Below are positions 8,493 to 35,887 of a stretch of DNA of 42,795 bases, one piece after another. Where the stretch lies: NCBI GenBank assembly GCA_029547225.1, contig JAKPPS010000040.1, forward strand, positions 1 through 42,795, written 5' to 3'. Below the pieces are notes generated by a model, which ran no database searches, was not told where the DNA came from, and saw only the letters and a list, made by a program, of their open reading frames with translations. Each line of letters starts with the position of its first letter. Within the stretch, counting starts at the first letter, position 1. Both the position numbers and the translations under genes were made by a program. The DNA comes from a bacterium. Lineage in GTDB: Bacteria; Patescibacteriota; Dojkabacteria; SC72; WJKH01.

Positions 8493-11474
8493 TTAACTAT
8501 TTCTTGTTTTTTCTTGTAATCCTGATTGCTCCCAAACCACATCAAAAAGCCTATCAGCCATAAACTTCTTAAACTCAGGGTCGTCAGAATACTTCTTGTA
8601 TAAGTTAAAGTTTATATTAATCATGTTTTGGAATTTTTCATTAAGTAGCTTTTCAAATGTAATCCAAGAATTCTGCCTGTCTGAATTTTGTGTTGCTTTT
8701 ATAAAAACAGGATCATTTCTAACATCATCAGCAATATCGCCGAATGTCTTTCGAACTTTATCTTCATCTCCAAAATCAATTCCTCCAAATCTTTCATTCA
8801 TCTCTTCTAAAATCCTAGAAAGCCTGTCTTTTTCCTCAGGAGCTTTGCCACCACGCATTTTAGTAGGTATTGGTTCAATAGTTGTGTCACCTTTCAAACT
8901 GATAGAGCCATCGTTTTCTTTTTGAACACGGATAGAATCAAGGTCTATTGAATTGACTAAATCATCAATAGGGTCTTTCTTACAATTAATCACAAGTTTT
9001 TTATTAAGGTCGGTAAGGTAAATATAAAGTTTCTCTAGCTCTATGCTTTCAAAAGGAGCAATCTGAGATATATAAGCATATAATCGAATAAACGATTTAA
9101 TTTTTGCTTTTATGTCATACTTATGTTCTTCTTCCAGACTATTAAATCTCTCTACTGCTATATCAAGAATAGGGTGTAGTTCGACTATAGACCTCTTTTC
9201 TAAGCACTTAGTGACATATAAGGTAACTTCCTCGTCTGTAAATATCTGAAATGCTTTAATTGCATCTTTGAGGTCAAAGAGCTTATTAGGGTCTGTACCT
9301 TCCGACAATATAGTTGTTTTATAATAAGGTTCAAATGCCTTTTGTATATCTTCGTGCGTATTAACAAAATCAAGTACGAATGTATCTGTTTTTTGAGGTG
9401 GCATAACACGATTCAACCTTGACAATGTTTGAACAGCCGCTACACCTGCAAGGGGTTTATCTACATACATAGTATGAAGTAATGGCTCATCGAATCCTGT
9501 CTGGAACTTTTCTGCAACAATCAAAAACTTATAATCATCTTCGTTTTCTAATTTCTTCTTCACAGATAATAAAGATACACTGAAGCCATTAAGTTTGTCT
9601 TCTGTTAAGCCATCAATCTCTCCTGTAAAAGCAACAATAGACTTAAATGGAAGATTTAATTCCTTACATACCTTGTTAAAAGCATAATAGTACTCAACTG
9701 CATTTTTACGACTATTTGTTACTACCATAGCTTTGGCTCTTTCCCGAATTTTGTATACAGTGTTGTTTCTAAAATGGTCTAACATTATTTTGGCTTTCTT
9801 TTCGATAGTATCTGGATTGGAAAGTAAGAACTTATAAATAATCTTTTTTGCTTCCTGTTTATCGTATTCAGGGTCATCTTCGACTTTCTTAATTAGATTG
9901 TAATATATGTGATATGTCGTGTAATTAAGTAAAACATCAAGAATAAACTTTTCCTGAATAGCCTGTTGCATTGAATAAACATGATAGGCTTTGTAAGTGC
10001 CATCTGGCTGTTTAACTCCAAATAGTTCCAAAGTCTTGTTTTTAGGTGTTGCTGTAAATGCAAAATAACTAGCATTTGGAAGTAATTTTTTATTAATTAC
10101 CATTTCATTCAAAATATCTTCGAAATCTTTAGTTGGGTTTTCCTCGTTGTATCCAAAAGATGATTTGTCGGCTAAAGTCATACTGATATTCCTTGATGTT
10201 TCTCCTGACTGTGAAGAGTGGGCTTCATCAATAACTAATGCAAACCTCTTGGAGGGAAGCTGTCCTATATCATTTACAATATAAGGGAATTTCTGGACAG
10301 TCGTAATTATTATCTTTTTTCCTGCCTCTAAAGCAGTTCTAAGATGTTGACTACCTTCTGTTACAGCTTCAACAACACCTTCAACTTGTGCGAATTGTCT
10401 GATGTTGTTTCTTATCTGTTGGTCAAGAATCTTTCTATCAGTTACAACAACAACACTATCAAAGATAACATCTTCGTTTGTTGAATCATGAAGTTCAACT
10501 AGCTGATGAGCTAACCATGCAATAGAGTTACTTTTTCCAGAACCTGCTGAGTGTTGGATTAAATATCTATGTCCAACACCTTTTTGTTTTGCGTCTATCA
10601 ACAGTTTCCTTACACAATCTAATTGATGGTATCTTGGGAAGATTTGTTTAACTGTTTCTTTTCCTGTGTTTTCATTTTTCTCAACGATTTTACTTGCAAA
10701 ACTCTCAATTATGTTTATTAAAGAATCTTTTTGAAAAATTTCCTCCCACATGTACGAAGTCCTATACCCATTTGGATTATCAGGATTTCCGGCTTGTCCA
10801 TTATTTCCTTTGTTAAATGGTAAGAACACAGACTTCGCTCCATCTAATTTTGTACACATAAATACTTGTTCACTATCCATTGCGAAATGTACCATACATC
10901 TCGTAAATGAAAAGAGTGTTTCTTTGGGTGAACGGTCATTTCTGTATTGCCATATAGCGTCTTGGTAAGTCTGTCCTGATAAAGGGTTCTTTAACTCAAT
11001 TGTTAAGACAGGTATTCCATTTACAAAAACAACTAAATCTACGGATTCGTTTGATTGTTGACTAAAATGTACTTGTCTAATTACAGACAATATGTTTTGG
11101 TCGTATTGTTCTTGTGCATTTGGATTTTTTGATGAGGAAGGGTGGGGGTACATAAGAGTAAATTGTACTCCCATGTCTTCAATTCCCTTTCTTAAGACTT
11201 CAATTACACCTTTTGACTTAATCTGCTGATTTAATCGATACGAGAAGTTTCTCTCAAATAGTTCTTTATGAATATTTTTCAGGTTCTCTAATTTTTCGAG
11301 TTGGGTCTTTTGCAGAAATTCCATCAGCACACCAAAATCAATACAATTAGCTTTGTCGTAATCAGAATCAACTCTTGCACGATAGTTAGGTGTTTGCTGT
11401 TGTGTAAGGTATTCAAAGATAACATCCTCGAATCCTGATTCTTTTTTGTTTAGTGTATTGTTTTGGTTTTCCAT
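8493..11474 (-). CDS. hsdR: Type I restriction enzyme, endonuclease/translocase subunit
   Basis: The 993-residue motor and nuclease subunit of a type I restriction-modification complex. The N-terminal nuclease domain shows D146 and LTIELKNP (E160, K162), the PD-(D/E)XK centre. The helicase region has Walker A HSAGSGKS (308-315), VVVTDRK, DEAH (416-419) and FTATPKN. Motif VI-like sequences (FQTGFDEPLL, then QTLSRLNR) follow. The C-terminal 300 residues form the helical part that binds the methyltransferase. The length is normal for HsdR and all motifs are intact, so the enzyme should work. It lies 21 bases after hsdS and 11 bases before the ATPase gene, in one operon. Confidence 0.97.
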   Translation of the reverse strand: MENQNNTLNKKESGFEDVIFEYLTQQQTPNYRARVDSDYDKANCIDFGVLMEFLQKTQLEKLENLKNIHKELFERNFSYRLNQQIKSKGVIEVLRKGIEDMGVQFTLMYPHPSSSKNPNAQEQYDQNILSVIRQVHFSQQSNESVDLVVFVNGIPVLTIELKNPLSGQTYQDAIWQYRNDRSPKETLFSFTRCMVHFAMDSEQVFMCTKLDGAKSVFLPFNKGNNGQAGNPDNPNGYRTSYMWEEIFQKDSLINIIESFASKIVEKNENTGKETVKQIFPRYHQLDCVRKLLIDAKQKGVGHRYLIQHSAGSGKSNSIAWLAHQLVELHDSTNEDVIFDSVVVVTDRKILDQQIRNNIRQFAQVEGVVEAVTEGSQHLRTALEAGKKIIITTVQKFPYIVNDIGQLPSKRFALVIDEAHSSQSGETSRNISMTLADKSSFGYNEENPTKDFEDILNEMVINKKLLPNASYFAFTATPKNKTLELFGVKQPDGTYKAYHVYSMQQAIQEKFILDVLLNYTTYHIYYNLIKKVEDDPEYDKQEAKKIIYKFLLSNPDTIEKKAKIMLDHFRNNTVYKIRERAKAMVVTNSRKNAVEYYYAFNKVCKELNLPFKSIVAFTGEIDGLTEDKLNGFSVSLLSVKKKLENEDDYKFLIVAEKFQTGFDEPLLHTMYVDKPLAGVAAVQTLSRLNRVMPPQKTDTFVLDFVNTHEDIQKAFEPYYKTTILSEGTDPNKLFDLKDAIKAFQIFTDEEVTLYVTKCLEKRSIVELHPILDIAVERFNSLEEEHKYDIKAKIKSFIRLYAYISQIAPFESIELEKLYIYLTDLNKKLVINCKKDPIDDLVNSIDLDSIRVQKENDGSISLKGDTTIEPIPTKMRGGKAPEEKDRLSRILEEMNERFGGIDFGDEDKVRKTFGDIADDVRNDPVFIKATQNSDRQNSWITFEKLLNEKFQNMININFNLYKKYSDDPEFKKFMADRLFDVVWEQSGLQEKTRNS

Positions 11475-11495
11475 ATTAATTACTTCATAAATAAA

Positions 11496-12776
11496 TTAAG
11501 GTTTTCGTTTACCTGTAACCAATTCATAAATTAATGATTGGCGATATTGCTGAACCAATTCAATTTGACTGCGAGTATGTTTTATCACTTCTTCAATATA
11601 GTCCTCAAATTTTTCGACTTCTTTAACAATGTCCTCCATTTCATTAGTTTCTGGATATGCTAGAGGCATATCCCTTAACCACTCTCTTTGAAGTTCAATC
11701 TGATTTGTAGAACCTTCTGAAAGGATTCCGTTAATTAAATCATAATTGGTTAGAAAGAAATAGTAAAAGAATCGACTTACCAATGGACCACTTCCTCTCA
11801 TAATAGTAACATGGCTGTCTGCCATATATCCTTCCCCTTGGTTAAATATATGCACTTTACCAAGAACACCTCCCCCTGTTGAAGCCATAATTAAATCCCC
11901 ATCTTGTAACTTTCCTTTAGAACATAATCCTTTATGATAACGGATATCTTTTTCATCAAAGAAACCTTTACTAAAAGTCGCCTGATTTACAACTTTTATA
12001 TCTGACGATTCTACATAATTTGGTGTTTCTCCTCTATTACAATAACGAAAGATATTTTTCAATCTTTGAACTTTCCAATGTTGAGGAATTTCTCCGAGCC
12101 ATTCAATTCCGCTGTCCTTCATTTCAATATTGGGATTTAGACCTTTAGTTACCAATTCATTTATTTTTGATTGTTTGTACGTCTTAAGTAACTCTATATA
12201 CTTTTCTTTCTGTTGTATAAAGTCTTGAGTTAGTTTGTCTATATGGTTGACATACTCAACTATTGCTTTCTGATTGTCTTTAGAGGGTAAAGGTAAAGAC
12301 ATATTTTTAAGCTCTACCCACTCCACAGACTCTCTTATCTCCATAATTCCTTTTGCCATAGTTCTAAGAAATTTCTGTACAGGTCTTGTTTTGAAAATTA
12401 ACTCAAAGTATCTACTAACAAATTTGTTTTCATCTCTATTTCTCAACACATAATATACAGGGCTAACCAATCCATTGTATCCTGAAATACCTAAAGAACC
12501 TATAACTGCGTTCATTTTATTTATAACAAAATCACCTTTTTTAACTATTTTGTATTTCTCTAATTTCTCAGAAGACTTGTTTCCCTGATTTCCTCTTTCT
12601 TCATACGGTATGATTCCGACATCTTTTACAAGTGATAACATCTGTAAATCGTCACCATTCTTGTTTATATCTTTAACATCTTCAAAAACTTTTCTTAAAG
12701 GGATTTCGTTCCAATCAGCAGGAATACCATCCATCCATTCAATATTTGTTGTTTTATAAGATTCATACTTCTGCAT
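11496..12776 (-). CDS. hsdS: Type I restriction enzyme, specificity subunit
   Basis: The 426-residue subunit chooses the DNA target for both methylation and cutting. It has the usual two-part build. The first target recognition domain (about 1-170) ends in the conserved helical region VEYVNHIDKLTQ. The second (about 215-390) starts at the repeated IEWLGEIPQHWK, matching IEWMDGIPADWN near the N-terminus, and ends in a second helix. The near-duplicate starts of the two halves are characteristic. The start codon is one base after the hsdM stop, so translation is probably coupled. The recognised sequence cannot be read from the protein. Confidence 0.95.
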   Translation of the reverse strand: MQKYESYKTTNIEWMDGIPADWNEIPLRKVFEDVKDINKNGDDLQMLSLVKDVGIIPYEERGNQGNKSSEKLEKYKIVKKGDFVINKMNAVIGSLGISGYNGLVSPVYYVLRNRDENKFVSRYFELIFKTRPVQKFLRTMAKGIMEIRESVEWVELKNMSLPLPSKDNQKAIVEYVNHIDKLTQDFIQQKEKYIELLKTYKQSKINELVTKGLNPNIEMKDSGIEWLGEIPQHWKVQRLKNIFRYCNRGETPNYVESSDIKVVNQATFSKGFFDEKDIRYHKGLCSKGKLQDGDLIMASTGGGVLGKVHIFNQGEGYMADSHVTIMRGSGPLVSRFFYYFFLTNYDLINGILSEGSTNQIELQREWLRDMPLAYPETNEMEDIVKEVEKFEDYIEEVIKHTRSQIELVQQYRQSLIYELVTGKRKP

Positions 12777-12777
12777 A

Positions 12778-14526
12778 CTATCTCTCGGTTATTGTTTCAA
12801 GTAAAGTATCTGAATCGCTGTCTAACTGCTTTAACTCTGCTAAAATTTCTTCCGATGGTCTAGGAGATACAAACTTATAGAAGTATTTATTAAAGTTGAC
12901 CTCATATCCTATTTTTGATTCATCTGGTTCATACCATGCGTCAGGACGATATTGCTTAACTTCCTCGTTAAAGAATGTATCTATATCTGTTTTTAATGGG
13001 ATATTTTCAACATCATCCAAATCCTTATCAATTTCTATTCCTCCTGCTTTCTTTCTTATTATATTTCCATCTTCATCTTTCTTAGGTTGATGAACCTTTA
13101 TTTGTGTGTATCCAAATTCTGCATTATCAAATATTTTAGAATGTTCAGATTCTTCAAAATTAGTATATATTTCAAATATCTTATCTATCTGTGAATCTGA
13201 GATTTTAACTCTTTTTTGTCCCAATGTTTTTCTTAGATTTGTATAAAATTCTTTTGAGGTTGCATTGATAAGTTGTGTCTTACCAATTCTTTTCTCTTCC
13301 TTTCTATTAGTTAAAACAAGAATATATGTCGGAATACCTGTGTTGTAAAACATGTTAGTAGGAAGTGCAACAATCGCTTCTACCAAATCGTTTTCAAACA
13401 AATATCTTCTTATCTCACTTTCACCTTGTCCTGCATCACCAGTAAAAAGAGCAGAACCATTATGCACAGAAGCTATCCTTGACCCAAGTTCCGTATCTGT
13501 TTTCATTTTTGAAAGCATGTGTGATACAAAGAGTAACTGACCATCAGAGACTCTTGGAATACCTATCTGGAATCTACTGTCAATAATCTGTTTCTTTCTA
13601 TCATCTCCAACCAGTAGTTTTTTTCTATCATCTTTCCAACTTTTCCCATAAGGTGGATTTGTAAGCATAAAGTCAAACTTCTTATCAGGAAAGCCATCGT
13701 TAGAAAGTGTTGAACCAAAAGCAACACCATCTGGATCTTCGCCTTTGATAAGAAGGTCTGCCTTACAAGTTGCATATGTTTTATCGTTTACTTCTTGACC
13801 GAACAAATGCACAAAGCCATCATATTTAAGGTTATTCTTTAGATACTCCTTTGATTCTGAAAGCATACCTCCTGTTCCACAAGCAGGGTCGTAAAGCAAA
13901 ATTGTTCCAATATTCTTTATCTTGTCTTCAACAGGGTCAAATACAATCCTATTCATCAATCTAATGACTTCTCTTGGAGTGAAGTGTTCTCCAGCCTCCT
14001 CATTGTTTTCTTCGTTAAACCTTCTAATTAAGTCTTCAAAGACATATCCCATTTCATGGTTTGATAGTTTATCTGGTGAAATAGCTACTTCTGGGTCAAC
14101 AAATTTTTCAATCAACGAGAAAAGAATACCGTTTCTATTACATTTTTCTACAATGTTCTTTAGGTCAAATTTGTCTATAATATCCTTTATATTGTCAGAA
14201 TAGCTATTTAAATAGGACAGTGTGTTTTCTTTTAGATTCTTAGGTTCGTCTAGTAGTGTTTTAAGTGAATATTTCGAGTAGTTGTAATACTTCTTCCCTG
14301 AAGTAGATTCTAATAGTCCCTCCAAATTGGTAATCTTGTCCTTAAACTCATCATAAGTAGCAACAACATCAGCTTTTGTATCTTCAAGAGATAAATCAAT
14401 TCTTCTTAATACAGTCATTGGCAATATAACATTGGGATATTCTCCCTTTCTATAATGGTCTCTTAAGACATCGTCTGCGACTGACCAAATAAAACTAATA
14501 ATTGAATGTAGATTTGATGTCGACAT
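12778..14526 (-). CDS. hsdM: Type I restriction enzyme, methyltransferase subunit
   Basis: The 582-residue N6-adenine methyltransferase protects host DNA and forms the core of the type I complex. The N-terminal HsdM_N helical domain covers about residues 8-150. The S-adenosylmethionine motif DPACGTGG is at 213-220 and the catalytic NPPY at 290-293. EHFTPREVIRLM upstream is the usual N6-methylase family signature. The protein is somewhat long, with a C-terminal extension holding the IIRKKAGGIEID insertion that is common in this subfamily. It starts one base after the XRE controller gene stops and ends one base before hsdS, in one operon. Confidence 0.97.
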   Translation of the reverse strand: MSTSNLHSIISFIWSVADDVLRDHYRKGEYPNVILPMTVLRRIDLSLEDTKADVVATYDEFKDKITNLEGLLESTSGKKYYNYSKYSLKTLLDEPKNLKENTLSYLNSYSDNIKDIIDKFDLKNIVEKCNRNGILFSLIEKFVDPEVAISPDKLSNHEMGYVFEDLIRRFNEENNEEAGEHFTPREVIRLMNRIVFDPVEDKIKNIGTILLYDPACGTGGMLSESKEYLKNNLKYDGFVHLFGQEVNDKTYATCKADLLIKGEDPDGVAFGSTLSNDGFPDKKFDFMLTNPPYGKSWKDDRKKLLVGDDRKKQIIDSRFQIGIPRVSDGQLLFVSHMLSKMKTDTELGSRIASVHNGSALFTGDAGQGESEIRRYLFENDLVEAIVALPTNMFYNTGIPTYILVLTNRKEEKRIGKTQLINATSKEFYTNLRKTLGQKRVKISDSQIDKIFEIYTNFEESEHSKIFDNAEFGYTQIKVHQPKKDEDGNIIRKKAGGIEIDKDLDDVENIPLKTDIDTFFNEEVKQYRPDAWYEPDESKIGYEVNFNKYFYKFVSPRPSEEILAELKQLDSDSDTLLETITER

Positions 14527-16416: not shown

Positions 16417-16481
16417 TAATCATAAGACAGGTCTGCACAAGCAGACCGTCAAACAAGAGAGAGAAGCGTTTAATCGCTTAA
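16389..16481 (+). CDS. Possible 30-residue leader-type peptide
   Basis: A plus-strand ATG at 16389 follows a perfect AGGAGG with six bases spacing, which is rare in this window. The peptide begins MLVFSKEREI, is basic, and ends in the antisense of the sortase 3' end. The ribosome binding site sits at the edge of the stem 16282-16291/16381-16390, so it could be masked by it. The good site and spacing argue for translation. The short length and antisense overlap argue against. Low confidence. Confidence 0.25.
   Translation: MLVFSKEREIIIRQVCTSRPSNKREKRLIA
16427..16450 (-). terminator. Hairpin ending the transfer operon
   Basis: GAC-A-GGTCTGC and GCAGACCGTC pair around the loop ACAA, giving ten base pairs with one bulged A. 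It lies 20 bases past the sortase stop. The minus strand continues TTATGATTATTT, a weak T-rich tail, so it is a plausible but not perfect terminator. Confidence 0.55.
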
Positions 16482-17000
16482 CCTAATAAATATTCTCTGA
16501 TTTGATGAATAAAATTTACATGTGTAAATTGTCAAAAATTCATCACTTGGATTGTTCGTTCCATCAATAATTTCTTTAACAAGGTATTCGTACCTCTTAC
16601 CATTCCAAATAACAAAAACTTTATCTCCTTTATTTAGTTTATTTACATGATAAAGTGTTTGTTTCATTCTTTGTTCAGGACTAAGAGTTGACCACCCAAA
16701 ACGATGTACTGCAATCAGGTTGGGGAGATTGTTTGAATCAAGTCTTTGAATCCAACCTCCATAGTCCAGATATTCTTTATCTTGTCCTATCTTCATATCA
16801 ACACCAATCGATGGAATCATAAGTCTGTTGATTGAATAATCTTCTTCTGATTCGATAGCTTCAATAATCTCAACTTCCTTTGGAGGATTAATTTTGTATT
16901 CAATCTCAGGTGAGCAAACTTCATAGATAATAAAGAAACCAATTCCAACAAGAATAACTAAAAGAGAAATCAATATTGCTTTAACAAATCTGTTACCCAT
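16470..17000 (-). CDS. Sortase-family transpeptidase
   Basis: A 176-residue sortase that joins surface proteins carrying an LPxTG-like signal to the cell envelope. An N-terminal membrane anchor covers about residues 7-26. The sortase fold follows, with the substrate-side motif IPSIGVD. The catalytic triad can be read as H99 (AVHRFG), C161 (IYTC) and R169 (NQRIFIR). The likely substrate is the 1134-residue protein encoded at the other end of the same operon, which ends in LAQTG, a hydrophobic stretch and a KRKKK tail. The gene overlaps the Replic_Relax gene by 31 bases, so it clearly belongs to the transfer operon. It is somewhat short for the family but all three catalytic residues are present. 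Confidence 0.88.
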   Translation of the reverse strand: MGNRFVKAILISLLVILVGIGFFIIYEVCSPEIEYKINPPKEVEIIEAIESEEDYSINRLMIPSIGVDMKIGQDKEYLDYGGWIQRLDSNNLPNLIAVHRFGWSTLSPEQRMKQTLYHVNKLNKGDKVFVIWNGKRYEYLVKEIIDGTNNPSDEFLTIYTCKFYSSNQRIFIRLSD

Positions 17001-17860
17001 GATTCATTCAGTTGCTTAAATAAAATAGGCATGGTGAGGAATGTTTCTATTTCTGTTGATGTTATGCTTCTAATGTTCTCACATATTCCAACACTCCTCC
17101 AAAGTAAACTCTTTGATTTTTCAAGTAAACCTCGTGCATTAATTGCTGATTGAATATCTGTTTCTGGTTCTACTTGTAAGTTGTTTAATCTCTCCGAACT
17201 TCTTTCTGAAAGAAAAAGAATATGGGGATATTGATTAAATCTTTTCTGCCAATCACCATAAACAAAGTATTCAAAATAACGCATAAACTTTCTTGATAGC
17301 TGTTCAATATCCATGCTTCCAGTATCGTATTCGAGAAAATAGCCATAGGCTTTGTTATCTACTGTAAATTCGAAGTATGAATCAGGTGATAAAACTCGTT
17401 TTATTGTTCGACCTGATTTATCAGATCTAAATTCATATTGAAGTACCAATCTTTGGTCGCCAATCCAGTCATTCAATTGAATGTGAGGAAATGATTTCAA
17501 ACCAATGAGAAATTGCTCGTAAAGTTCACCAATTTTGACAGAATGTTCCAACATCGCAAATTGGACTTTCTTGCCTTGATTTGGGATTGAAATATCTTCA
17601 AGTTCAACACCTCTAATATCTGCAAGTAGTTCACCACATTTTCGAGTAAGATAAACAACTTTCCAGTTATTTCCATAGTAAAAAGATTTCAACAATCCTT
17701 TCTTTTCTAAACTAATAATAGATTTCTCCAATGACTGTCTATGAGAATATAATCCTTGTTGTTTTGCTATCGTTCTTAATACCTTGATTGGTAAGTACCT
17801 GAATGATTCGATAATATCTAAAATCCCTATTTGATTGTATGTAATTCTAATTTTATTCAT
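16970..17860 (-). CDS. Replication-relaxation (Replic_Relax) family protein, probable mobilisation/initiator
   Basis: A 296-residue protein (start MNKIRI at 17860). The N-terminal winged helix (about 1-75, with a SLEKKGLLKSFYYG wing) is followed by the conserved core. The core includes FAMLEHSVKIGELY, then a nuclease-like stretch around SPDSYFEF, GYFLEYDTGSM and FMRYFEYF. This fits the Replic_Relax family, whose members are linked to plasmid replication and DNA relaxation in Gram-positive and candidate-phyla elements. I reject the longer upstream start at 17974 because it would read through the cloverleaf-like element. No other relaxase is visible, so this is the best candidate for the DNA-processing protein that works with the coupling protein. 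Confidence 0.85.
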   Translation of the reverse strand: MNKIRITYNQIGILDIIESFRYLPIKVLRTIAKQQGLYSHRQSLEKSIISLEKKGLLKSFYYGNNWKVVYLTRKCGELLADIRGVELEDISIPNQGKKVQFAMLEHSVKIGELYEQFLIGLKSFPHIQLNDWIGDQRLVLQYEFRSDKSGRTIKRVLSPDSYFEFTVDNKAYGYFLEYDTGSMDIEQLSRKFMRYFEYFVYGDWQKRFNQYPHILFLSERSSERLNNLQVEPETDIQSAINARGLLEKSKSLLWRSVGICENIRSITSTEIETFLTMPILFKQLNESWVTDLLKQY

Positions 17861-17873
17861 AAATGTATCAATA

Positions 17874-18004
17874 TCCGACCGTTGTATTTCACACTTCGTG
17901 TAGGTCAAACATACACATGTTGACCGTAGTCGAGGGAGTGATTGGGTGGAGTCCGTAGGAGTCCACCCAAGCACTCAACACCGAGGCTGAAATAGACGGT
18001 CGGA
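17874..18004 (-). ncRNA. Cloverleaf-like structured element between coupling protein and Replic_Relax genes
   Basis: The 131-base element is closed by TCCGACCG (17874-17881) with CGGTCGGA (17997-18004) and, after a small internal loop, TATTTCA (17885-17891) with TGAAATA (17988-17994). Inside are two hairpins. One is GGTCAA/TTGACC plus CAT/ATG (17903-17925). The other is 17936-17976: five, nine and three base pairs separated by single mismatches around a GTA loop. A short CAC-TTC-GTG hairpin precedes them. The element ends 13 bases before the Replic_Relax start. It may be an oriT or a cis-acting leader RNA. The bases 18005-18078 show nothing further. Confidence 0.6.
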
Positions 18005-18078
18005 ACACACTATTTGTTAATTTATGTAAATCAAAAATAACTGTTGCTTCTGGCTTCCAGAGTGAAATAGGGAGGCAA

Positions 18079-20673
18079 CTATTCAAACTTGCAACCATCA
18101 ATAATCCAAGTTCGTCTGTTTTTGATTTCCTGCTCAATTTCGGACTTGTTTTTTCCATATCGTAGATATGAATTACAAATAAAATTATTTACATACTCCT
18201 TGCTAAAAGAAACTTCTCTTTCTTCTGGAATATAGATAGAAAAAATGTCTTCCCCTGCTTTTACATTCGCATTAAATTCAGGTACTTCCATTACCTCTTG
18301 TTCAAGCACCTTTCCTTGTAACTCCTTTGAAATTATCTCGGAATCTTCTAAACCACATCTGTAATAAATCTTGTTCTTTACATTTCCCATAACGGAATGA
18401 AATACATCGTCTGGAAGTTGTTTGAAGAATTGGTGTGCAAGGACTAACTCAAGTTTGAATTTTCTAGCCTCTGATAAAGCCTGAGAGAAATCAGAACTAG
18501 CAAAGTTTTGAAACTCATCAGCATAAACAACAAAGGGTCGTCTTTCATCTCTGTTGACCTTTTTTGTTTCAAACCACACTTTAGACATAAGGAGTGAACC
18601 AAGTAAACTCATTCCTTCCTCACCAATATTCTTAGATGATAGGTTTACAAGTAGCACCTTTGATTGTCTAATAATGTTTGAGATATTGATTGCATTCCTC
18701 GACTGTCCAAAGGTGTACATTAAGATACCTGTAAGTATTTGAGAAAGTTTATTATCAAAGCCTTGCCTGATTTCTTGCCAGTTCTGTGAGGTCTTGTAAT
18801 TAGGTAATGTGTCCTGCCAAAAGGCTCTTAGTCCCTCATATTTGTTTAAGTCTATGACTTTAAGTACATTAGATTCCATTTTGTCGCTAAAGAACAAATT
18901 ACGAACATCAATTAAAGTAGGAGCATGAGAGCTCATAAATTGAATTGCTTCTGGTGTAGAGCCAAAGGAGGCAATCCAATCATTCTGAAAAATCATTAAT
19001 GTTTTTATTGCATTTATTAACATGGGTTTTCCAGTCATACCCATACCACTATCAGGATTACTTCGTTTGACGACCTTTTCAATCAGTTTGAAATTTGAAT
19101 CAACTATTAAGTCAATTTCTCTTTCGGAAAGTCCTATCGCATACAAAGGATTAAATCCAAAGTAATAATCTTCACTTCTTGTATCCCAAGTTATAATCTT
19201 GTTTGATTGTTCAAAGCTGTTAGGAAGTCTTTGTAAAATATCGAAAAAGAAATCTTCATGAGGATCCATAAGCATTAGACCTCTTTTATTTCCTTTATTT
19301 ATCAAATTGTCGATATCTTGTAATATAAATCTTTTCAAAATTGTTGATTTCCCTGTACCTGTTTGTCCTGTAACCACTATGTGTCGTTTTCTATTCTCAC
19401 AAGGCAAGTAGACCTTAAAACTTTTCTCTCTTGAGTAGTTTATGCCGAGTTCTAAATCGTCCATATTTTGTTTACTTCTGTATATCTTTTTAGAGGCAAT
19501 ATCAGGTGCAATAAAGTGTTCAACTTGTGGGTCGCTAATTCTATTTGGTAAATGATAAAGCATTGAGATTTCTCTGGAAGACAAACTTCCCTGTGAAGTA
19601 AACATTTCTCTGTAAAAGGGGAAGAACTTATCTTCTGGATAAATGAACCTTGTAATAACATCGTTAAGTTTGTGTACTTGTTTACGAACAAGCCGATTTT
19701 GAGTTTCGCTTTTCATTGATTCGAGAGCCTGTTCTATTGAATCAAGCTTCTGTTTTGCACCATCACCTTGAGCCACAACTCTGATGTAAGATGTAAAAGA
19801 AGTTTTGTATTTTTCGTCCATTCTACTGTAAAAACTTTGTAATTCATCTTTATCTACAAAGATTTTTCTGGGGTCGCTATCAGGTAATGCTGTTAATGGG
19901 TCGATTGTATTTTGTTCATTAGAGAACGACTTAAAGAGAGCTGATACAGTCTTTAATATAGCCAAAGGTAGCAACGGTACTGCGTAAATCAGATAACTTT
20001 CAAAACGATTTAGGAATAAACTTACCCAAGTGATTTCATTCTTCACAAGACGGTAGTTCTGCTTTGCCATATTTAGAGCCTCTTTATCAATTTCAGAAGG
20101 CTTTAGAACAATTTGGAATAATGTTGTAGAGTTTTTCTTTTGTCCAGAAAGAGCTATGAGTAAATCGTTTATCGGATCCATACTTTCAAAATCCCTTACA
20201 TCCATGAGCATATAAACATCATGCTTTAGACTTTTATACTCATTGATTTCGACAAACTCTTTACGAAACGATTTAATAGGGTCATGGTCAAGAGTTTTAA
20301 TCTTTACTCTGTCCTTGTATGTACTGTACAGATTTAATTTCACTAAGTCCTGCATAGGCTTTGTTGGTGTCCATACAAGGAATTTTATTCCGTCATGATT
20401 AGAGAATATTTCAAAAGATATTCTTGAATTCTTAACAGAAGCTGTAAGATTATCGATAAATCTCTGTAATGCAAATCTTTCACCTTGCTTGTTCTGTAAT
20501 TCTTCAAGTTGATACTTCGGTGGTATTATCTGCATAACAAATCCTTCTTTTTTTCGAGCTTTCCATCTCTCAATAAACAAGCGGACAAAATACTTAACAA
20601 TCCAAGCTACTGAAATAGACAAAGAGATTGTGATTACAAGTTGTACTATTTGATTGCTCAATAATTCAGTCAT
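18079..20673 (-). CDS. VirD4/TraG-like coupling ATPase (T4CP)
   Basis: An 864-residue membrane ATPase that should bring DNA to the secretion channel. A hydrophobic anchor covers about residues 8-30, with a possible second near 226-242. Residues 40-400 form the family-specific N-terminal domain. The motor domain follows, with Walker A GQTGTGKST (436-444), LMDPHEDFF, and Walker B VVYADEFQNF near residue 715. ELVLAHQF follows in the TraM-recognition-like region. The length and layout fit the HerA/VirD4-type coupling proteins of Gram-positive-like and candidate-phyla elements. The start overlaps the stop of the HTH gene by four bases (ATGA), and the cloverleaf-like element lies downstream. Confidence 0.92.
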   Translation of the reverse strand: MTELLSNQIVQLVITISLSISVAWIVKYFVRLFIERWKARKKEGFVMQIIPPKYQLEELQNKQGERFALQRFIDNLTASVKNSRISFEIFSNHDGIKFLVWTPTKPMQDLVKLNLYSTYKDRVKIKTLDHDPIKSFRKEFVEINEYKSLKHDVYMLMDVRDFESMDPINDLLIALSGQKKNSTTLFQIVLKPSEIDKEALNMAKQNYRLVKNEITWVSLFLNRFESYLIYAVPLLPLAILKTVSALFKSFSNEQNTIDPLTALPDSDPRKIFVDKDELQSFYSRMDEKYKTSFTSYIRVVAQGDGAKQKLDSIEQALESMKSETQNRLVRKQVHKLNDVITRFIYPEDKFFPFYREMFTSQGSLSSREISMLYHLPNRISDPQVEHFIAPDIASKKIYRSKQNMDDLELGINYSREKSFKVYLPCENRKRHIVVTGQTGTGKSTILKRFILQDIDNLINKGNKRGLMLMDPHEDFFFDILQRLPNSFEQSNKIITWDTRSEDYYFGFNPLYAIGLSEREIDLIVDSNFKLIEKVVKRSNPDSGMGMTGKPMLINAIKTLMIFQNDWIASFGSTPEAIQFMSSHAPTLIDVRNLFFSDKMESNVLKVIDLNKYEGLRAFWQDTLPNYKTSQNWQEIRQGFDNKLSQILTGILMYTFGQSRNAINISNIIRQSKVLLVNLSSKNIGEEGMSLLGSLLMSKVWFETKKVNRDERRPFVVYADEFQNFASSDFSQALSEARKFKLELVLAHQFFKQLPDDVFHSVMGNVKNKIYYRCGLEDSEIISKELQGKVLEQEVMEVPEFNANVKAGEDIFSIYIPEEREVSFSKEYVNNFICNSYLRYGKNKSEIEQEIKNRRTWIIDGCKFE

Positions 20674-22521: not shown

Positions 22522-23363
22522 TATTTAACAACTATTGAGAAATTAGATGTTACTGTAAGTCCGTCTTTTGAAATACGAACAGCTCCTACAATTAGTCCTA
22601 TATTTCCTTCTGGCACTGTAAAGTCGATTCTGGTAGAGCCATTAGATGAAGATGGGAAATTGTATGTGGTCTGTCCACTTTGCCAATTAACAACTGCACT
22701 ACCTGTTGCTCCACTTACTGGATTGTTGTTTTGATTTTTAACTAGACAATCCAAGCTAACGCTTTGTCCAACAAAGGGTTGAGTGTTAGTTATCGAGCAA
22801 GTAAGTTTCAATCCTGTTAGTTGGTATTGTTCAGGTTGTTTTGATTCTATTGGCTTCATTATTTCAGGCTTCTGTTCACTCTTAGATGTTTCCGTTTCTG
22901 GTTGTTCTTGTTTTACTTCAGGTAAAGGCTCTTCTTTTTGCTCTTCCTCACGAATAATAGAAATTACTTCTGATTTACTGGTACCATTTGGATTTTGTAC
23001 CTCTATAAAAACCTCATTAGTTCCAATAACAAGTTCTATTTGCAATTCAAAGATTCCTTCTTCATTTACCAACACCTCTTTCCCATTGATAAAGCCTTTA
23101 TTTTGAGCCTCTGTTTGAGCAACAACCGTAACAGAAGAATTTTTGGTTCTGTAATAATTTTGTAATGAAATTATGCTAAGGGTTGGCTCGGCGACATCAG
23201 AAACACTGTTATCTTCGGAGTTTTGTGTTTCTACAGAATGTATTACAGAATTGAAACCTCCTTTAAGATAAATTTCTATGGACAAGGCAATAGAAAACAA
23301 GACAAGGAAAATACTTGTCAGGAAGATGTATCCATGTTTTAGGTTTATATCTTTATTTTTCAT
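22521..23363 (-). CDS. Membrane-anchored Ig-like domain protein of the transfer operon
   Basis: A 280-residue protein with one N-terminal membrane segment (about 12-30). It has two beta-rich domains: one at about 60-135, resembling the Ig-like domain in which NGKEV, IGTNEVFIEVQNPNG and similar motifs occur, and a second at about 180-280 with LTCSITNTQPFVGQSVSLDCLV. A Glu/Pro/Lys-rich linker (about 138-178) joins them. It probably stands outside the cell and forms part of the channel or contacts the partner cell; a VirB8-like role is possible, but no VirB8 fold is evident. It overlaps the VirB4 gene by 11 bases. Confidence 0.7.
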   Translation of the reverse strand: MKNKDINLKHGYIFLTSIFLVLFSIALSIEIYLKGGFNSVIHSVETQNSEDNSVSDVAEPTLSIISLQNYYRTKNSSVTVVAQTEAQNKGFINGKEVLVNEEGIFELQIELVIGTNEVFIEVQNPNGTSKSEVISIIREEEQKEEPLPEVKQEQPETETSKSEQKPEIMKPIESKQPEQYQLTGLKLTCSITNTQPFVGQSVSLDCLVKNQNNNPVSGATGSAVVNWQSGQTTYNFPSSSNGSTRIDFTVPEGNIGLIVGAVRISKDGLTVTSNFSIVVK

Positions 23364-25197
23364 TTTTTCGTTGTTCGTCTAATTTTGCTAAATCTTCTGC
23401 ATTTGAAGAAAAAAGTTTTCTCTCATGTGGAGTTGCATATACAAACATATGGGAATGAGTATTTCCTTTGATAAAGAGAGCCTGTCCTTTGGTTAACCTT
23501 GTAATGTAGTCTTGTTCTATATCCGACAAATCAAAAGCCTTTGCTAAAGAGGGTATAGACTGTTTTTTCTGAGCAAGTATCAATGCAGTATCTGCATTTT
23601 TTGCAATTACACTCCCTTGAAGACTTTTTAGAAAATCATCAACATCTTGTGATATTGAAATAACTCCAAGATTATATTTCCTACCTCGTCTAACAAGATT
23701 CTCCATGAAGTTAGCACTAGATTCGTCTTTCAAAAGGAGATGTGCTTCATCAATGATTAGTATCTTTCGATTTCTATTAGATAGAACTTTTTGCCAAATA
23801 AAGTTGGACAAATAAAAGATTGAGGCATGTTTTTCCTGCTCAGGAACTTTTTGAATGTTAAAAACTACCATTGGAGAGTTAAAATCAACGTCATTGGTTG
23901 ATTGATTATCGTAAAGATCACCCATTTCTCCTTTACGAGAGTACTCTAACAGTTCAACAGCTATTCGTTTACCTTCTTCGCCTTGCTTTTTGAAGATTTT
24001 GATAAGGTCTGAAATAGTAGGAGGTTTCTTAGAATATGTATTTGGGTCGTCAAGTAATATTCCTTTACTCGCATAAGTTTCGTTTACTGCTTTGCTTACA
24101 ATACCTCTATTGTAAGCTTCTTCTGATAACCAAATTTTAAGAAGTCCTTTGACAACCCCAAGATGAGTTCTCATGACTTCTTTGGTATCAGTATCACTTG
24201 AGAAGAATTGGAGCGGATTGACTTTAGTTTTACTCTCAGGGTTTATATCTATGTTTGTACCTCCAACATAATCACAAAGGGTCTTAAACTCTCCTTCTGG
24301 GTCAATAACATAAACATTTATACCTCTGAACAGACTTCGATAAGCCTCTAATTTAGCAACGAAACTTTTTCCTGCACCAGAAGTAGCAAATATGATTCCG
24401 TTATAGTTCTTTGATGACTTTGAGAACCTATCAAAGCGAATTTTCTCACCACCCAAAGTTATTCCGTAAAATATTCCATCAGGGTCATTTAATGTTGCTG
24501 TGGTGAATGGTAAAGACGAAGAAACATTTGAGCTTGTTAAGTAGAATTCTTCTCCAACAGAATCATTTACATTTGGTAGAAATGTTTCAAGCCCTTGTTT
24601 CTGCTTGTATACAAGTTGGTGTAATTTAATCTGTTTGGCATATGTCAAATCCTTGAGAGCTTTATCGCTTTTTAATAGCTTAGCAAGGCTCTTCTGACTT
24701 AATTTAAGATACATCGACATAGAGTATAGTTTCTCTACACCTCTAACAATTGAATCCTCTATACTCCTTGCGTCTGCAATTGCTTGTTCAAGATCAACAG
24801 TGTGCATTTTCCCTTTGTCTGCCTTTTCGTAGAATTGAGAGGAGAGATTAGTGATTCTATTCCTAAGACCTGATAAGGCTTTTTGATAATCAAGAGGCTT
24901 AATGAACTGACTAATGACAATTGGCTCCCCATAATTCACAAGGTCGTATAGCCAATTTGGATATATGATTTGAGGAAACTCGGAAATCATATATGACTGA
25001 ATAAAGCTATCTTCCATCTCTACAAACTTTCCCTTGTTTTGAAACTCAAAAACAAGAGAATCATCAGGTGATAGTTTTGCTATTTCTGCTTTACGAAGGC
25101 TATCCTTAATGTATCTTCTACCTTTCAAATCAATTCTGTATTTGAAGTCATGAAGTGCATATTTAGATTGTTTGAAGAAATATTTAATAGGGTTCAT
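23353..25197 (-). CDS. VirB4-like conjugation ATPase
   Basis: A 614-residue cytoplasmic ATPase that powers assembly of the secretion channel. Residues about 45-245 form the VirB4/TraC-type N-terminal domain. The motor has Walker A ATSGAGKSFV (271-280), VIDPEGEF, and Walker B KILIIDEAHLLL near residue 490. MENLVRRGRKYNLGVISISQD is the highly conserved VirB4 block. Everything needed for activity is present. The start overlaps the PrgI-fusion stop by four bases. The length is at the short end for VirB4, in keeping with Gram-positive-type systems. Confidence 0.95.
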   Translation of the reverse strand: MNPIKYFFKQSKYALHDFKYRIDLKGRRYIKDSLRKAEIAKLSPDDSLVFEFQNKGKFVEMEDSFIQSYMISEFPQIIYPNWLYDLVNYGEPIVISQFIKPLDYQKALSGLRNRITNLSSQFYEKADKGKMHTVDLEQAIADARSIEDSIVRGVEKLYSMSMYLKLSQKSLAKLLKSDKALKDLTYAKQIKLHQLVYKQKQGLETFLPNVNDSVGEEFYLTSSNVSSSLPFTTATLNDPDGIFYGITLGGEKIRFDRFSKSSKNYNGIIFATSGAGKSFVAKLEAYRSLFRGINVYVIDPEGEFKTLCDYVGGTNIDINPESKTKVNPLQFFSSDTDTKEVMRTHLGVVKGLLKIWLSEEAYNRGIVSKAVNETYASKGILLDDPNTYSKKPPTISDLIKIFKKQGEEGKRIAVELLEYSRKGEMGDLYDNQSTNDVDFNSPMVVFNIQKVPEQEKHASIFYLSNFIWQKVLSNRNRKILIIDEAHLLLKDESSANFMENLVRRGRKYNLGVISISQDVDDFLKSLQGSVIAKNADTALILAQKKQSIPSLAKAFDLSDIEQDYITRLTKGQALFIKGNTHSHMFVYATPHERKLFSSNAEDLAKLDEQRKNEK

Positions 25198-25952
25198 GCT
25201 TCACTTACTGCTAATTTGGTTAAATCTAAAATCTCTTGTGTATTTAGAGGAATCAGCTTTATCTTTGTCTGTTCTAACAATCTCCCAAACGAATTTTCTT
25301 CTTCATCAAGCTTCTGTTTTGCGTCATCTAAACCTTTAGCATAGGTTGTGAGAACAATGAAAAAGCTTCGTTCCATTGTCTGAGTTAAGTCTTGGTATTC
25401 AAGTAAATACTCTCTACATCTCTTTTGAAGAACTCCGTTCAAATTGCGATATCTCTCGATTTCTTTATCAATACTCTTGTCCTTCGTTGAAAATCTTTGG
25501 ATTGTTAAAATTTGAACAGGATATTTCAAAGCAAATAAAGCTTGTTGAAGATACTTCTTGAAGGCAAATATCTCCTCCTCACTACTCATAGAAAGATTGA
25601 TTGGTTCTATTCTAAATACCTTTGAATATTGGACATCTGACACGATAACGATTCCCTCTGAAATATCTTTACCTATGACAATCCTCTGCTTTCTTGGGTT
25701 AAGAAGAAATTTGAAAGTATCAATAATATAGATGTGAAGAGGTCGTCCATGTACATCAAAAAGAAAAGGAATTAAGCATAACGCTATGAATAGTTCTCCA
25801 AGTATTTTCTGGTCTACTGTACGAAATATATCTGTTGTCCAAACAAGCAAAGACAAGCCTATTCCTATAAGTAATAGAAAATTCCTTCTGTTCAATACAA
25901 CAGAGAAGAAGCCTGTTTCTTTATTCAGTTTTGGAGGAACTATTTCCTGCAT
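25194..25952 (-). CDS. PrgI-family protein with extra VirB4-N-like C-terminal domain
   Basis: A 252-residue protein. The N-terminal ~90 residues have the PrgI/VirB3-like form: a short start (VPPKLNKETGFFSVVLNRRNFLL), two hydrophobic segments (about 28-42 and 50-66), then the family's RPLHIYIIDTFKFLLNPRK. PrgI proteins are normally about 110-140 residues. The extra C-terminal part (about 95-252) resembles the N-terminal domain of VirB4 ATPases: RIEPINLSM, then FKKYLQQALFALKYPVQILTIQRF and a coiled coil. The downstream VirB4 protein has its own N-domain, so this is an extra copy or a related domain. It overlaps the VirB6-like gene by 32 bases. Confidence 0.82.
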   Translation of the reverse strand: MQEIVPPKLNKETGFFSVVLNRRNFLLLIGIGLSLLVWTTDIFRTVDQKILGELFIALCLIPFLFDVHGRPLHIYIIDTFKFLLNPRKQRIVIGKDISEGIVIVSDVQYSKVFRIEPINLSMSSEEEIFAFKKYLQQALFALKYPVQILTIQRFSTKDKSIDKEIERYRNLNGVLQKRCREYLLEYQDLTQTMERSFFIVLTTYAKGLDDAKQKLDEEENSFGRLLEQTKIKLIPLNTQEILDLTKLAVSEA

Positions 25953-27972
25953 CTTTTTTTATTGGTTTAATCTGAAAATATTTAGTAACTGGCTTTTGCC
26001 CTGATACTTTATCTTGAATCTTTACAGTATTAATTCCTTGTATTTGGAAATACCCTTTATCAAAGGCTGTACTTAGAATATCCATTCTATTCTGAGGATT
26101 TTGAATATACTGTTGTATCTGTTTTTGATTCATTACTCCATCAAGAACCTGATTTTTTGAATACCATTCGGAGAGATGATTCCAATGCTTTTCGTTATCC
26201 GAATCAAATGTTCTTCCTCGTATGATTTCTGTTGGCTTATTTGTAACTACATCTGATAAGTACTGATTAGTATTAGGATTTGAAAAACTAACTTGAGATA
26301 AATCCATTAATTGATGAATTGAAGTTGGTTTGTCTGTAAGAGGTTCACCAAGTGAAGAAGTAAAATTACTTCGAGAATACCCATTACTTACAATATTCGA
26401 ATCTTTAACAGAAATATCTTTGATTTTTTCAATGTTAGGAGTGGTAGAGTATAGTGTTTTTGGTGTTCGAATATCTTTCAAAGTCCTTCCGTTCAAAGGC
26501 TTCATGCCAATCTCCAAGAAAGCCTTCTTAGCAGTTCCTCCAGAACTAATTACTGCATTAAAACTTCCTGTTTTGCTACTACCCCCTCCAGTTTTAGCAC
26601 TAACACTTGTATCAACAGCTTTCTTTGTTGTGCTACCAAGTGGGAGTTTAGAAACAATAGCTTCTCCAAGAGCATTACCTGCTAGATTTCGTACAGATGA
26701 GGACTTACCACCAGACATTCCAGAAACAACACCTTCCTTGAGCCTTCTAGCTTGTCCTATCGTAGCTCCTGCAACAATTCCCCCTGCAAGAGAGCCACCA
26801 ACACTCCAAAGTATTCCTGAGAACTTGTTAATTATTGAAGGAATAATATTCAGAAAAGCTAAAGAACCCAAGCCCAAAATCACTTTAGGTATAGGTTCAT
26901 TTACACTCTGAATAATCTCTAGTGAAATGCCAATACCCACAAGAAAGATTGGTTGCATAAATAGAATCTTCAGGAGTTCTTCAATGTATTGTTTGAAGAA
27001 TTGACTGCCACTGGGAAGTAACCCAATGATAAAAACGATTGGGAAAAGAATCATATACAAGAGGAGATGAAAGAAACGAATTATGAATTGAAAAAGTATA
27101 GTTACAAGTAAAAATAACAGACCAACCCAAAGTATTATTTCTGCAAAGATATTTAATGTACCTTGAATACTGAATTCAAGTTTAGAATTAACTATTTGTA
27201 AGCCAAGAGCATTAAGAAGTGATTCTGACAAGGTATTACCACTTCCAACAAGAGTATTCAAAACGAACCTGTTTAGAGCATTCACCAAATCTATTGCATT
27301 GGCAAACAAAAATCTCATAGCAACCATACAGAGAACGAAAAGAAGAACATTCTTAGCAACCTCTTTTAGTAATTGAATACCTCTTAAAGAATCTTCAAGG
27401 ACTAAATATGTTCCTGTAAGTACTATTATGAGTGGAAGTAGTAGCCAAGCTACACTTTGAGAGGCATTGTAAAATTTGTTTACATGGATAGTAATATTAT
27501 TTCCTCTTACATCAAGAATCTGTCCATCACTTTTTGCAATGTTGGGCGTAAATGCAACATAATCGTCAAACAATTCCAGACCTTGCATAAGAATTTCAGA
27601 AATAGCGTCTACTATTGATTCCTGAAAGCTAGAGAAAGGATTGAATATGTCAATCTGATTTGGTGTAGTTTGCCCTCTACCAAATTCCTCTTCTGGTAAA
27701 TCAAGAACTCCTGAATCATTGGGTAACTCATTTTCAATCTGTTGTTCAATTTCTGTTTGTTTTTGAAACACAGGCTCTTGTATCTTTGACCGATATACAA
27801 AGAAGAAAGCTATCTGGAGGACGCCAATAATAATTGTTAAGATAATCCCTACGATGAAGAGCTTGTTAATTAAACGCTTTTCTTCTTTTCCTGCCTTTTT
27901 AATTTTATCTTTCATGTCTAAGGCTTGTTTTTCAATTGTTTTGTATGAATTTAAGAAGTTAAACATTTGCAA
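25921..27972 (-). CDS. VirB6/TrbL-like polytopic channel protein
   Basis: A 683-residue inner-membrane channel component. The first membrane segment is near residues 38-60, followed by an acidic linker. Six or seven more segments fall between about 170 and 420, for example AWLLLPLIIVLTGTYLVL, LLFVLCMVAMRFLF, LWVGLLFLLVTILFQF and LLLYMILFPIVFIIGLL. The C-terminal 250 residues are hydrophilic, rich in Ser, Gly, Thr and Lys, and probably cytoplasmic. No sequence motif is diagnostic, so the call rests on topology and on its place between the pilin and PrgI/VirB4 genes, where VirB6 homologues are found. The start overlaps the end of the pilin gene by 14 bases. Confidence 0.82.
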   Translation of the reverse strand: MQMFNFLNSYKTIEKQALDMKDKIKKAGKEEKRLINKLFIVGIILTIIIGVLQIAFFFVYRSKIQEPVFQKQTEIEQQIENELPNDSGVLDLPEEEFGRGQTTPNQIDIFNPFSSFQESIVDAISEILMQGLELFDDYVAFTPNIAKSDGQILDVRGNNITIHVNKFYNASQSVAWLLLPLIIVLTGTYLVLEDSLRGIQLLKEVAKNVLLFVLCMVAMRFLFANAIDLVNALNRFVLNTLVGSGNTLSESLLNALGLQIVNSKLEFSIQGTLNIFAEIILWVGLLFLLVTILFQFIIRFFHLLLYMILFPIVFIIGLLPSGSQFFKQYIEELLKILFMQPIFLVGIGISLEIIQSVNEPIPKVILGLGSLAFLNIIPSIINKFSGILWSVGGSLAGGIVAGATIGQARRLKEGVVSGMSGGKSSSVRNLAGNALGEAIVSKLPLGSTTKKAVDTSVSAKTGGGSSKTGSFNAVISSGGTAKKAFLEIGMKPLNGRTLKDIRTPKTLYSTTPNIEKIKDISVKDSNIVSNGYSRSNFTSSLGEPLTDKPTSIHQLMDLSQVSFSNPNTNQYLSDVVTNKPTEIIRGRTFDSDNEKHWNHLSEWYSKNQVLDGVMNQKQIQQYIQNPQNRMDILSTAFDKGYFQIQGINTVKIQDKVSGQKPVTKYFQIKPIKKDAGNSSSKTE

Positions 27973-28297
27973 TGTACTTGATAGCTTCTAAAATAAAATC
28001 AGGTTTGAATAAGAAGATTGCTGCAATTATTAAGATGACAACATCACGAGCAAGTTTTCCTCTAACCATCGGATTATCACCACTATTAAGTAATTCGAAA
28101 GCGTCTTTAATAATGTAAAGAATTAACACTCCAGAACCAACTCTTGTAGCTATTGTGATAACCCTTTCAATAATTGCTGAAATCTCTGCACTCGGATCAC
28201 TTTGTGCGTAAACTGTTTGCACAAAAATCATCGGTGAGATAGCAAGTGTTGTTATAGATAGAGCAAGTTGCTTTAATTTTTCTATGTTTTTCATCAT
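27959..28297 (-). CDS. VirB2/TrbC-like pilin
   Basis: A 112-residue protein with a signal peptide (hydrophobic region about 10-30, likely cut after VYA near residue 31). The mature part has two hydrophobic helices (about 46-64 and 84-105) joined by a short positively charged loop (GDNPMVRGKLAR). This is the standard design of VirB2-type pilins, which polymerise into the transfer pilus. It lies between a 44-residue membrane protein and the VirB6-like gene, a typical place. Family sequences are weakly conserved, so size, topology and context carry the call. Confidence 0.85.
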   Translation of the reverse strand: MMKNIEKLKQLALSITTLAISPMIFVQTVYAQSDPSAEISAIIERVITIATRVGSGVLILYIIKDAFELLNSGDNPMVRGKLARDVVILIIAAIFLFKPDFILEAIKYIANV

Positions 28298-28315: not shown

Positions 28316-28450
28316 TTAGATTTCTTCATCAGACAAAGCCTCTTCTTTTTCTTTGAGCTTTTTATCTCTTTTCTCTCTGTACATACCTCGAAAGAAAATG
28401 ATTGCTACGTACACAACAAAAAGGCTTATAAATATAATTAGTGTTATCAT
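28316..28450 (-). CDS. Small membrane protein coupled to the surface adhesin gene
   Basis: A 44-residue frame with one membrane segment (MITLIIFISLFVVYVAIIFF) and a strongly charged tail ending LSDEEI. Its ATG overlaps the TGA stop of the giant surface protein (ATGA), a strong sign of translational coupling, and the pilin gene starts 18 bases after it. Topology predicts a short outer end and a charged cytoplasmic tail. It could be a CcmD-like or holin-like assembly helper, but there is no family evidence for either. Confidence 0.7.
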   Translation of the reverse strand: MITLIIFISLFVVYVAIIFFRGMYREKRDKKLKEKEEALSDEEI

Positions 28451-34172: not shown

Positions 34173-34202
34173 GATACTTAATGAAAAATGATAGTATATG
34201 AA

Positions 34203-34319
34203 TGACCACAACTTAAAACATAACAAGCCACCTTCGCTTTCTCAGGCAGAAGAGAAAGTAATAAGGGCGATTCGTACAATCTGGCTTGTTCAGGTTGTGG
34301 TCAACGAGTCGCCCTTTTT
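34203..34319 (+). promoter_or_regulatory. Mutually exclusive hairpin leader upstream of the recombinase (attenuator-like)
   Basis: Three stems nest: TGACCACAAC (34203-34212) with GTTGTGGTCA (34294-34303), AACAAGCCA (34222-34230) with TGGCTTGTT (34282-34290), and CTTTCTC (34237-34243) with GAGAAAG (34252-34258). A competing 13-base stem pairs AAGGGCGATTCGT (34263-34275) with ACGAGTCGCCCTT (34304-34316), with one T-G wobble, and is followed by TTT: an intrinsic terminator. Its loop holds the 3' arms of the first two stems. The folds either exclude each other or form a pseudoknot. The recombinase gene begins 25 bases later. Confidence 0.65.
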
Positions 34320-34344
34320 GTTAAATAAATAATTTACGAGAAAA

Positions 34345-35832: not shown

Positions 35833-35887
35833 ACCTGCGACCTCTTGCACCCCATGCAAGCATTCTAGCCATCTGAACTATTCCCCG
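35811..35887 (-). tRNA. tRNA-Pro (anticodon GGG)
   Basis: The 77 bases fold into a complete cloverleaf: acceptor CGGGGAA with TTCCCCG, D-stem GTTC with GAAT, anticodon stem CTTGC with GCAAG, and T-stem GCAGG with CCTGT around TTCAAGT. The anticodon loop ATGGGGT gives GGG, which reads the Pro codon CCC. C1 is typical of bacterial tRNA-Pro, and CCA is encoded. The 3' end faces the element, and the recombinase gene overlaps its last 22 bases, so integration has left the tRNA intact. Confidence 0.96.

Follow-up and report, generated by a model that had tools for sequence, protein, structure and literature searches.

A branched inverted-repeat element between a coupling-protein gene and a Replic_Relax gene of a Dojkabacteria genome is probably the origin of transfer (oriT) of an integrative conjugative element (ICE) with a MOBC-type (Replic_Relax) relaxase, copied by hitch-hiking elements that lack a relaxase of their own. 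This reading rests on the comparison of sequences and predicted folds described below.

The element and its surroundings

The window, that is, the whole stretch of 42,795 nucleotides analyzed here, is contig C44 of a 1.01-Mb genome (G000). The element sits in a 218-nt non-coding gap (18079 to 17860) between the coupling ATPase and Replic_Relax genes, and the 13 bases originally counted between it and the Replic_Relax start codon (17860-17858, minus strand) were correct. The relevant features are as follows.

17874-18004, no strand assigned: whole branched inverted-repeat element, candidate oriT (stems, folding, homologues)
17874-17891, plus strand: 5' arm of outer stem P1, TCCGACCGT and TATTTCA; lineage-specific sequence with complementarity retained
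17988-18004, plus strand: 3' arm of outer stem P1, TGAAATA and ACGGTCGGA
17894-17901 with 17978-17985, plus strand: imperfect inner stem, CTTCGTGT / ACACCGAG
17903-17925, plus strand: hairpin P2 of 9 pairs, GGTCAAACATACACATGTTGACC; variable stem, recurrent apical ACACA-like loop
17929-17935, plus strand: core motif GTCGAGG, immediately 5' of P3; present in 13/13 complete copies
17936-17976, plus strand: long hairpin P3 of 17 pairs with mismatches A.G and G.G; best-conserved part of the element
18043-18079, plus strand: second hairpin, GTTGC...GCAAC, downstream of the element; like hairpins follow several other copies
16970-17860, minus strand: Replic_Relax (PF13814) protein of 296 aa, MOBC-type relaxase
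18079-20673, minus strand: coupling-protein-like ATPase, HerA/TraD-type P-loop
20670-21629, minus strand: HTH_36 replication-initiator-like protein, conserved in relaxase-bearing elements
23353-25197, minus strand: VirB4/TraG-type ATPase of the type IV secretion cluster
25921-28297, minus strand: VirB6/TrbL-like protein (25921-27972) and weak VirB2/TrbC-like protein (27959-28297)
34345-35832, plus strand: large serine recombinase, probable integrase, whose 3' end overlaps tRNA-Pro (35811-35887)

The conjugation cluster also includes an M23 peptidase. Because the serine recombinase overlaps tRNA-Pro and accompanies this cluster, the region looks like an ICE; a search for att repeats of the window, G033, and C42 elements found none. 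Probable cargo at 8493-14526, 16470-17000, and 28447-31851 comprises type I restriction-modification methylase and specificity genes, a sortase, and a DUF11 surface protein.

P1 consists of nine pairs between TCCGACCGT (17874-17882) and ACGGTCGGA (17996-18004) and seven pairs between TATTTCA (17885-17891) and TGAAATA (17988-17994). The original prediction had given a closing stem of eight plus seven pairs, so that its seven pairs stand and its eight become nine. Its nine-pair hairpin at 17903-17925 and its 17-pair hairpin at 17936-17976, with two single mismatches (A.G and G.G), were both recovered from the sequence, while the imperfect inner stem and the multicopy family had not been part of it.

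Folded as DNA, the plus strand of the element reaches -39.0 kcal/mol (z -8.7); folded as RNA, the element reaches -66.7 on the plus strand (z -8.0) and -62.0 on the minus strand (z -7.7), and none of 200 shuffled sequences equaled it either as DNA or as RNA. Among 4267 tiles of 131 nt across the 42.8 kb, the element had the lowest energy (-59.4), the next independent place being at -44.2. The second most stable fold of the window (-44 kcal/mol) lies at 34200-34360, directly upstream of the serine recombinase gene. A covariance-model search of the element against Rfam returned nothing, relaxed threshold included, and a tRNA- or tmRNA-like identity was dropped, ARAGORN finding tRNA-Pro only. The second hairpin (GTTGC-TTCTGG...GGCAAC) stands approximately 40-80 nt past the cloverleaf and has a variable stem with partly conserved inner letters. 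It raised the idea of an IS110/IS605 bridge or omega RNA, which was rejected because the recombinases found nearby are of the serine type; none of the neighbouring genes examined was IS110 or TnpB.

Copies and distribution

A covariance model of the element core was run on all 86 genomes of the class Dojkabacteria. Matches in G416 were set aside as GC-rich hairpins lacking the core motif, and thus true copies occur in 9 rather than 10 of the 86 genomes (G000, G001, G009, G033, G049, G052, G054, G414, and G419). The window genome carries three further copies, on contigs C58 (at a Replic_Relax gene), C42, and C39. A stricter hairpin pattern, which would overlook divergent copies, matched only the window genome and G049 among 380 genomes across the phylum, and therefore the sequence family looks lineage-restricted. 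The element gave no blastn match among plasmid sequences, and in viral contigs neither the core pattern nor a relative of the Replic_Relax relaxase was found (0 each). One viral contig matching the hairpin pattern (L013) was taken as a chance hit, as it has no GTCGAGG core and no comparable surroundings.

In all relaxase-bearing elements in which it was found, 7/7 (window, C58, G049, G054, G052, G419, and G414), the element stands at the start of the Replic_Relax gene.

Three copies form a sub-type, type B, with the loop GGTCGAAGACGTCC (L023, G001:C24; L024, G009:C92; L025, G001:C28). L023 and L024 share a leader, FRRSIL.SLLKIIWQ, ahead of a cargo gene, which in L023 is Shedu SduA; in L024, an HTH excisionase-like ORF overlaps the shared leader/cargo gene region. 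At 4600-4760 of L026 (G001:C15), the left half of a cloverleaf is fused at GTCCACC to the 3' end of tRNA-Ala(GGC), apparently through recombination across 7 bp that the hairpin arm and the tRNA end have in common.

A conserved core within covarying arms

The motif GTCGAGG[GA]AGTGA together with hairpin P3 is conserved in 13/13 complete copies. Double changes affect 4 of 16 pairs in P3, 97.9% of cells being paired compared with a shuffled mean of 92.2% (0/500), and this covariation signal vanishes when the partner is slid. The outer arms show no sequence relation between lineages (TCCGACCGT, GTTATCGTTA, CACAAATT, CTCCTGCC, GTAAACTG, GTGTTGGAC, TCTCATCCCC, and ACTAAACCTTACTAACTC), yet each has its own exact complement downstream in the same copy. 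Because such arms are not alignable, and RNAalifold on a plain alignment misses them, we compared self- with cross-complementarity instead. Complementary stretches averaged 9.5 nt between a copy's own arms and 5.8 nt between unrelated copies (n = 142); the type B copies L024 and L025 were unremarkable in this comparison.

The original prediction had named uncompensated arm changes, or a lack of conservation, as what would speak against it; the arms differ but stay complementary, and the core is kept. It had also proposed that covarying stems would indicate an RNA and one-strand conservation an oriT, which proves too simple, since here the core is conserved and the arms covary as well, the pattern expected of a DNA hairpin or cruciform.

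Predicted pairs include G.U at only 14/648 on the plus strand and 21/648 on the minus strand (approximately 2-3%), with no clear strand bias, and this low count is not imposed by the method because the folds used permit G.U. Diverged RNA stems usually contain several-fold more G.U pairs, confined to one strand. Judged against what is usual for diverged RNA stems, the nearly pure Watson-Crick pairing without clear strand bias thus suggests that the structure is formed by DNA and not by RNA.

Elements that carry the site without a relaxase

The elements of C42 (L008), C39 (L009), and G033 (L022) contain the cloverleaf and no Replic_Relax gene. They encode a serine recombinase and a Phage_rep_O protein, and their cargo includes DpnII restriction-modification, a peptidase S51, and a regulator. 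Except for distantly related recombinases, no proteins match between the relaxase-less and relaxase-bearing elements. Nevertheless, C42 and the G049 ICE have identical 46-nt cores (46/46), and the C42 core differs from the window at 2 positions. Because the core is near-identical while the proteins of the two element types are unmatched, a cis site recognized by a factor supplied in trans would explain these copies best. A relaxase is encoded in the same genome as the relaxase-less copy in 2 of 4 genomes (G000 and G009, not G033 and G001, the genomes being incomplete).

The C39 element could be delimited: a 14-bp repeat, CGTTAAAATTCAGG, bounds 4.24 kb (L009, 1198-5447) that hold a serine recombinase, a 77-aa ORF, a Phage_rep_O protein, peptidase S51 cargo, and, near one end, the cloverleaf. 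An 11-bp repeat in G419 (5307/11192) was not beyond chance. The serine recombinase of the C42 element (L008, 6643-8241) is broken into two frames, possibly because of a defect in the element or an assembly error. In G033 (L022, 8780-9290), the gene that directly follows the cloverleaf contains long tandem repeats in frame and, in the assembly, an N run.

The Replic_Relax protein

The Replic_Relax protein of the window scores 47.6 bits against PF13814 (curated cut-off 25.3), a family listed as that of the MOBC relaxases (PMC5357655). Enzymes of this type combine an N-terminal winged helix-turn-helix (wHTH) domain with a PD-(D/E)XK-related active site akin to that of restriction endonucleases (PMC12857230). 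Among 12 proteins compared, D160, E177, and H106 were invariant and P159, D179, and K191 near-invariant; the window protein reads P159-D160...E177-x-D179...K191, plus H106. Its AlphaFold2 model, which is confident (pLDDT 90), gave MarR-like wHTH matches in Foldseek, with restriction or nicking endonucleases among the weak matches (best, PfoI, E 0.01). The proteins encoded beside the site belong to a group of longer Replic_Relax proteins, with identities to the window protein of 49% (G054), 26% (G052), and 25% (G419), and no such site was seen upstream of the class's shorter Replic_Relax proteins. In Patescibacteria, many Replic_Relax genes likewise have no comparable structure upstream, and therefore the element is not a general MOBC feature.

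Most other Replic_Relax loci checked had nothing comparable upstream. Outside the class, G127 carries two Replic_Relax genes (L112, C7; L110, C4) with large multi-branched inverted repeats upstream, which are unrelated in sequence to the Dojkabacteria element. Between these two copies, the arms change in a matched manner at several places: GCGTCGTCTG/CAGACGACGC versus GCGCCGTCTG/CAGACGGCGC, GACTTCCCGC/GCGGGAAGTC versus GACTCCCCGC/GCGGGGAGTC, and CTTCATTT/AAATGAAG versus CTTCGTTT/AAACGAAG. Both repeats hold CCCCTCGAC, which includes the complement of GTCGAGG (extended), although this agreement with the Dojkabacteria core is suggestive only. At L088 (G295:C1), a strongly folding 13-bp inverted repeat, TACCCCATCATGC, lies 264-312 bases upstream of Replic_Relax and is possibly another MOBC-associated site.

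Weighing the functions of the element

Two features by which an oriT is recognized are present: a non-coding cis site beside the relaxase and coupling genes, and inverted repeats flanking a conserved nic-like sequence, with GTCGAGG next to P3 in all complete copies. The relaxase-like features of the protein, the copies without a relaxase, and the branched repeats of G127 also speak for an oriT; against it count the many Replic_Relax genes that have no such structure, the relaxase-less copies in G033 and G001 for which no relaxase was seen in the same (incomplete) genome, the lack of common direct repeats, and the weakness of the Foldseek nuclease match (E 0.01). The original prediction had left the choice between an oriT and an RNA leader, and our results support the former and go against the latter. 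An RNA leader, or a structured small RNA, controlling the Replic_Relax gene would agree with the 13 bases to the start codon, the strong RNA folding on both strands, and the covarying stems. However, the copies in C39, C42, and G033 have no Replic_Relax gene and lead no neighbouring gene, which disfavours such a leader, and the scarcity of G.U (approximately 2%) without clear strand bias, the lack of an Rfam match, and promoter-like matches at chance level make it very improbable. Less improbable, but still unlikely, is that the element, instead of being a nick site, is where replication of the excised form starts (double- or single-strand initiation), or a single-strand promoter after transfer. 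Its hairpins would then recruit primase, polymerase, or RNA polymerase to single-stranded DNA, and structure-conserved arms with little G.U suit a single-stranded fold; moreover, an initiator-like gene (HTH_36 or Phage_rep_O) is near every type A copy with a complete neighbourhood. Yet these two families are unmatched while the core is near-identical in both element types, and thus neither initiator accounts for the core; the place at the relaxase gene (7/7 of the relaxase-bearing elements in which it was found) also speaks against such a role.

We give just as little credence as to an RNA leader to the view that the hairpin is a recombination (att) site of the integrase, although the half-element of G001:C15, joined to the tRNA-Ala 3' end at the common GTCCACC, speaks for it. 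The att-like repeat of C39 lies at the recombinase 3' end and at 5434, outside the cloverleaf, and identity among the serine recombinases that accompany different copies is only approximately 25-29% while the core is nearly invariant. For the 2-bp crossover of serine recombinases, an even dyad centre is expected, whereas that of P3 is 3 nt.

A model of transfer

Taking the element as an oriT, we infer nicking, the position of nic, the cruciform, and transfer in trans, and propose the following pathway, in which GTCGAGG would be the candidate nic or recognition sequence. The serine recombinase would first excise the ICE. Replic_Relax, with its predicted winged helix and restriction-endonuclease-like domain, would recognize the core, namely GTCGAGG and hairpin P3, and the inverted repeats, extruded as a cruciform when the DNA is supercoiled or folded as a branched single strand, would expose the nick site and hold it in position. 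After nicking, the strand would be handed to the adjacent coupling ATPase and then to the type IV secretion system (T4SS), and the fold may aid re-closure in the recipient. What would matter in the outer stem P1 is the shape that it gives, whatever its sequence. Within this genome and related ones, small integrative elements with the same core, their own arms, and no relaxase would be moved in trans. A wider and more doubtful proposal, to which we hold only tentatively, is that the MOBC relaxase reads a branched DNA shape (a three-way junction in which the core is conserved and the outer arms are free in sequence), that conjugative and hitch-hiking elements form a network sharing this system in trans, and that epibiont-like Dojkabacteria engage in active conjugation and piracy.

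A conserved candidate transfer site at a MOBC-type relaxase, present also in relaxase-less elements, argues that conjugation and hitch-hiking occur in Patescibacteria, and, if it is an oriT, would suggest real conjugation in the little-known Dojkabacteria. A 2025 survey of Patescibacteria reported few relaxases, 109 in 103 genomes and 58 of them MOBC, makes no mention of oriT, and proposed mainly other roles for the T4SSs (PMC12102498), which counts against the oriT reading. In nicking by MOBC relaxases, no covalent intermediate has been observed so far (PMC12857230), and the element offers an exact DNA substrate for testing these enzymes. The site could also be used to locate mobilizable elements in uncultured genomes.

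Comparison with known systems

Cruciform-type rolling-circle origins and integron attC are likewise DNA hairpins in which structure counts, but no Rep_trans/HUH protein or integron integrase was found near the element. Conservation in attC is confined to the ends, with a variable middle. The Dojkabacteria element is the reverse, with variable ends and a conserved middle; on this ground, and because the nearby integrases are serine recombinases, an integron attC/CALIN identity was rejected.

The MOBC oriTs of pAD1 (oriT2/TraX) and CloDF13 (mob region/MobC) share the PF13814/MOBC relaxase family, to which the window protein belongs with a predicted wHTH and PD-(D/E)XK-like residues, and the location of the site beside the relaxase gene within a conjugation module. 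The oriT2 of pAD1 contains a large inverted repeat. For TraX of pAD1, binding to five direct repeats at a distance from nic has been reported (PMC12857230), whereas direct repeats of this kind are not a common feature of the Dojkabacteria copies. In the literature on MOBC oriTs, we found no description of arms conserved only as structure. Streptococcal integrative and mobilizable elements (Rel_PF13814/MobC, VirD4 coupling protein, and serine integrase) resemble ours in the relaxase domain and the serine integrase, and their compact layout resembles the G419 and G052 elements, while we saw no branched site described for them (PMC5357655). As in the oriT mimicry of SGI1-type islands (reviewed in PMC11389934), small integrative elements without a relaxase copy the site core of a conjugative element. 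Unlike SGI1-type islands, the Dojkabacteria mimic takes over the core alone (46/46 nt in C42 against the G049 ICE), its arms being its own, and the host is a CPR bacterium. A MOBC oriT is thus a kind of site already known; new here are arms conserved as structure, mimicry restricted to the core, and the group of hosts.
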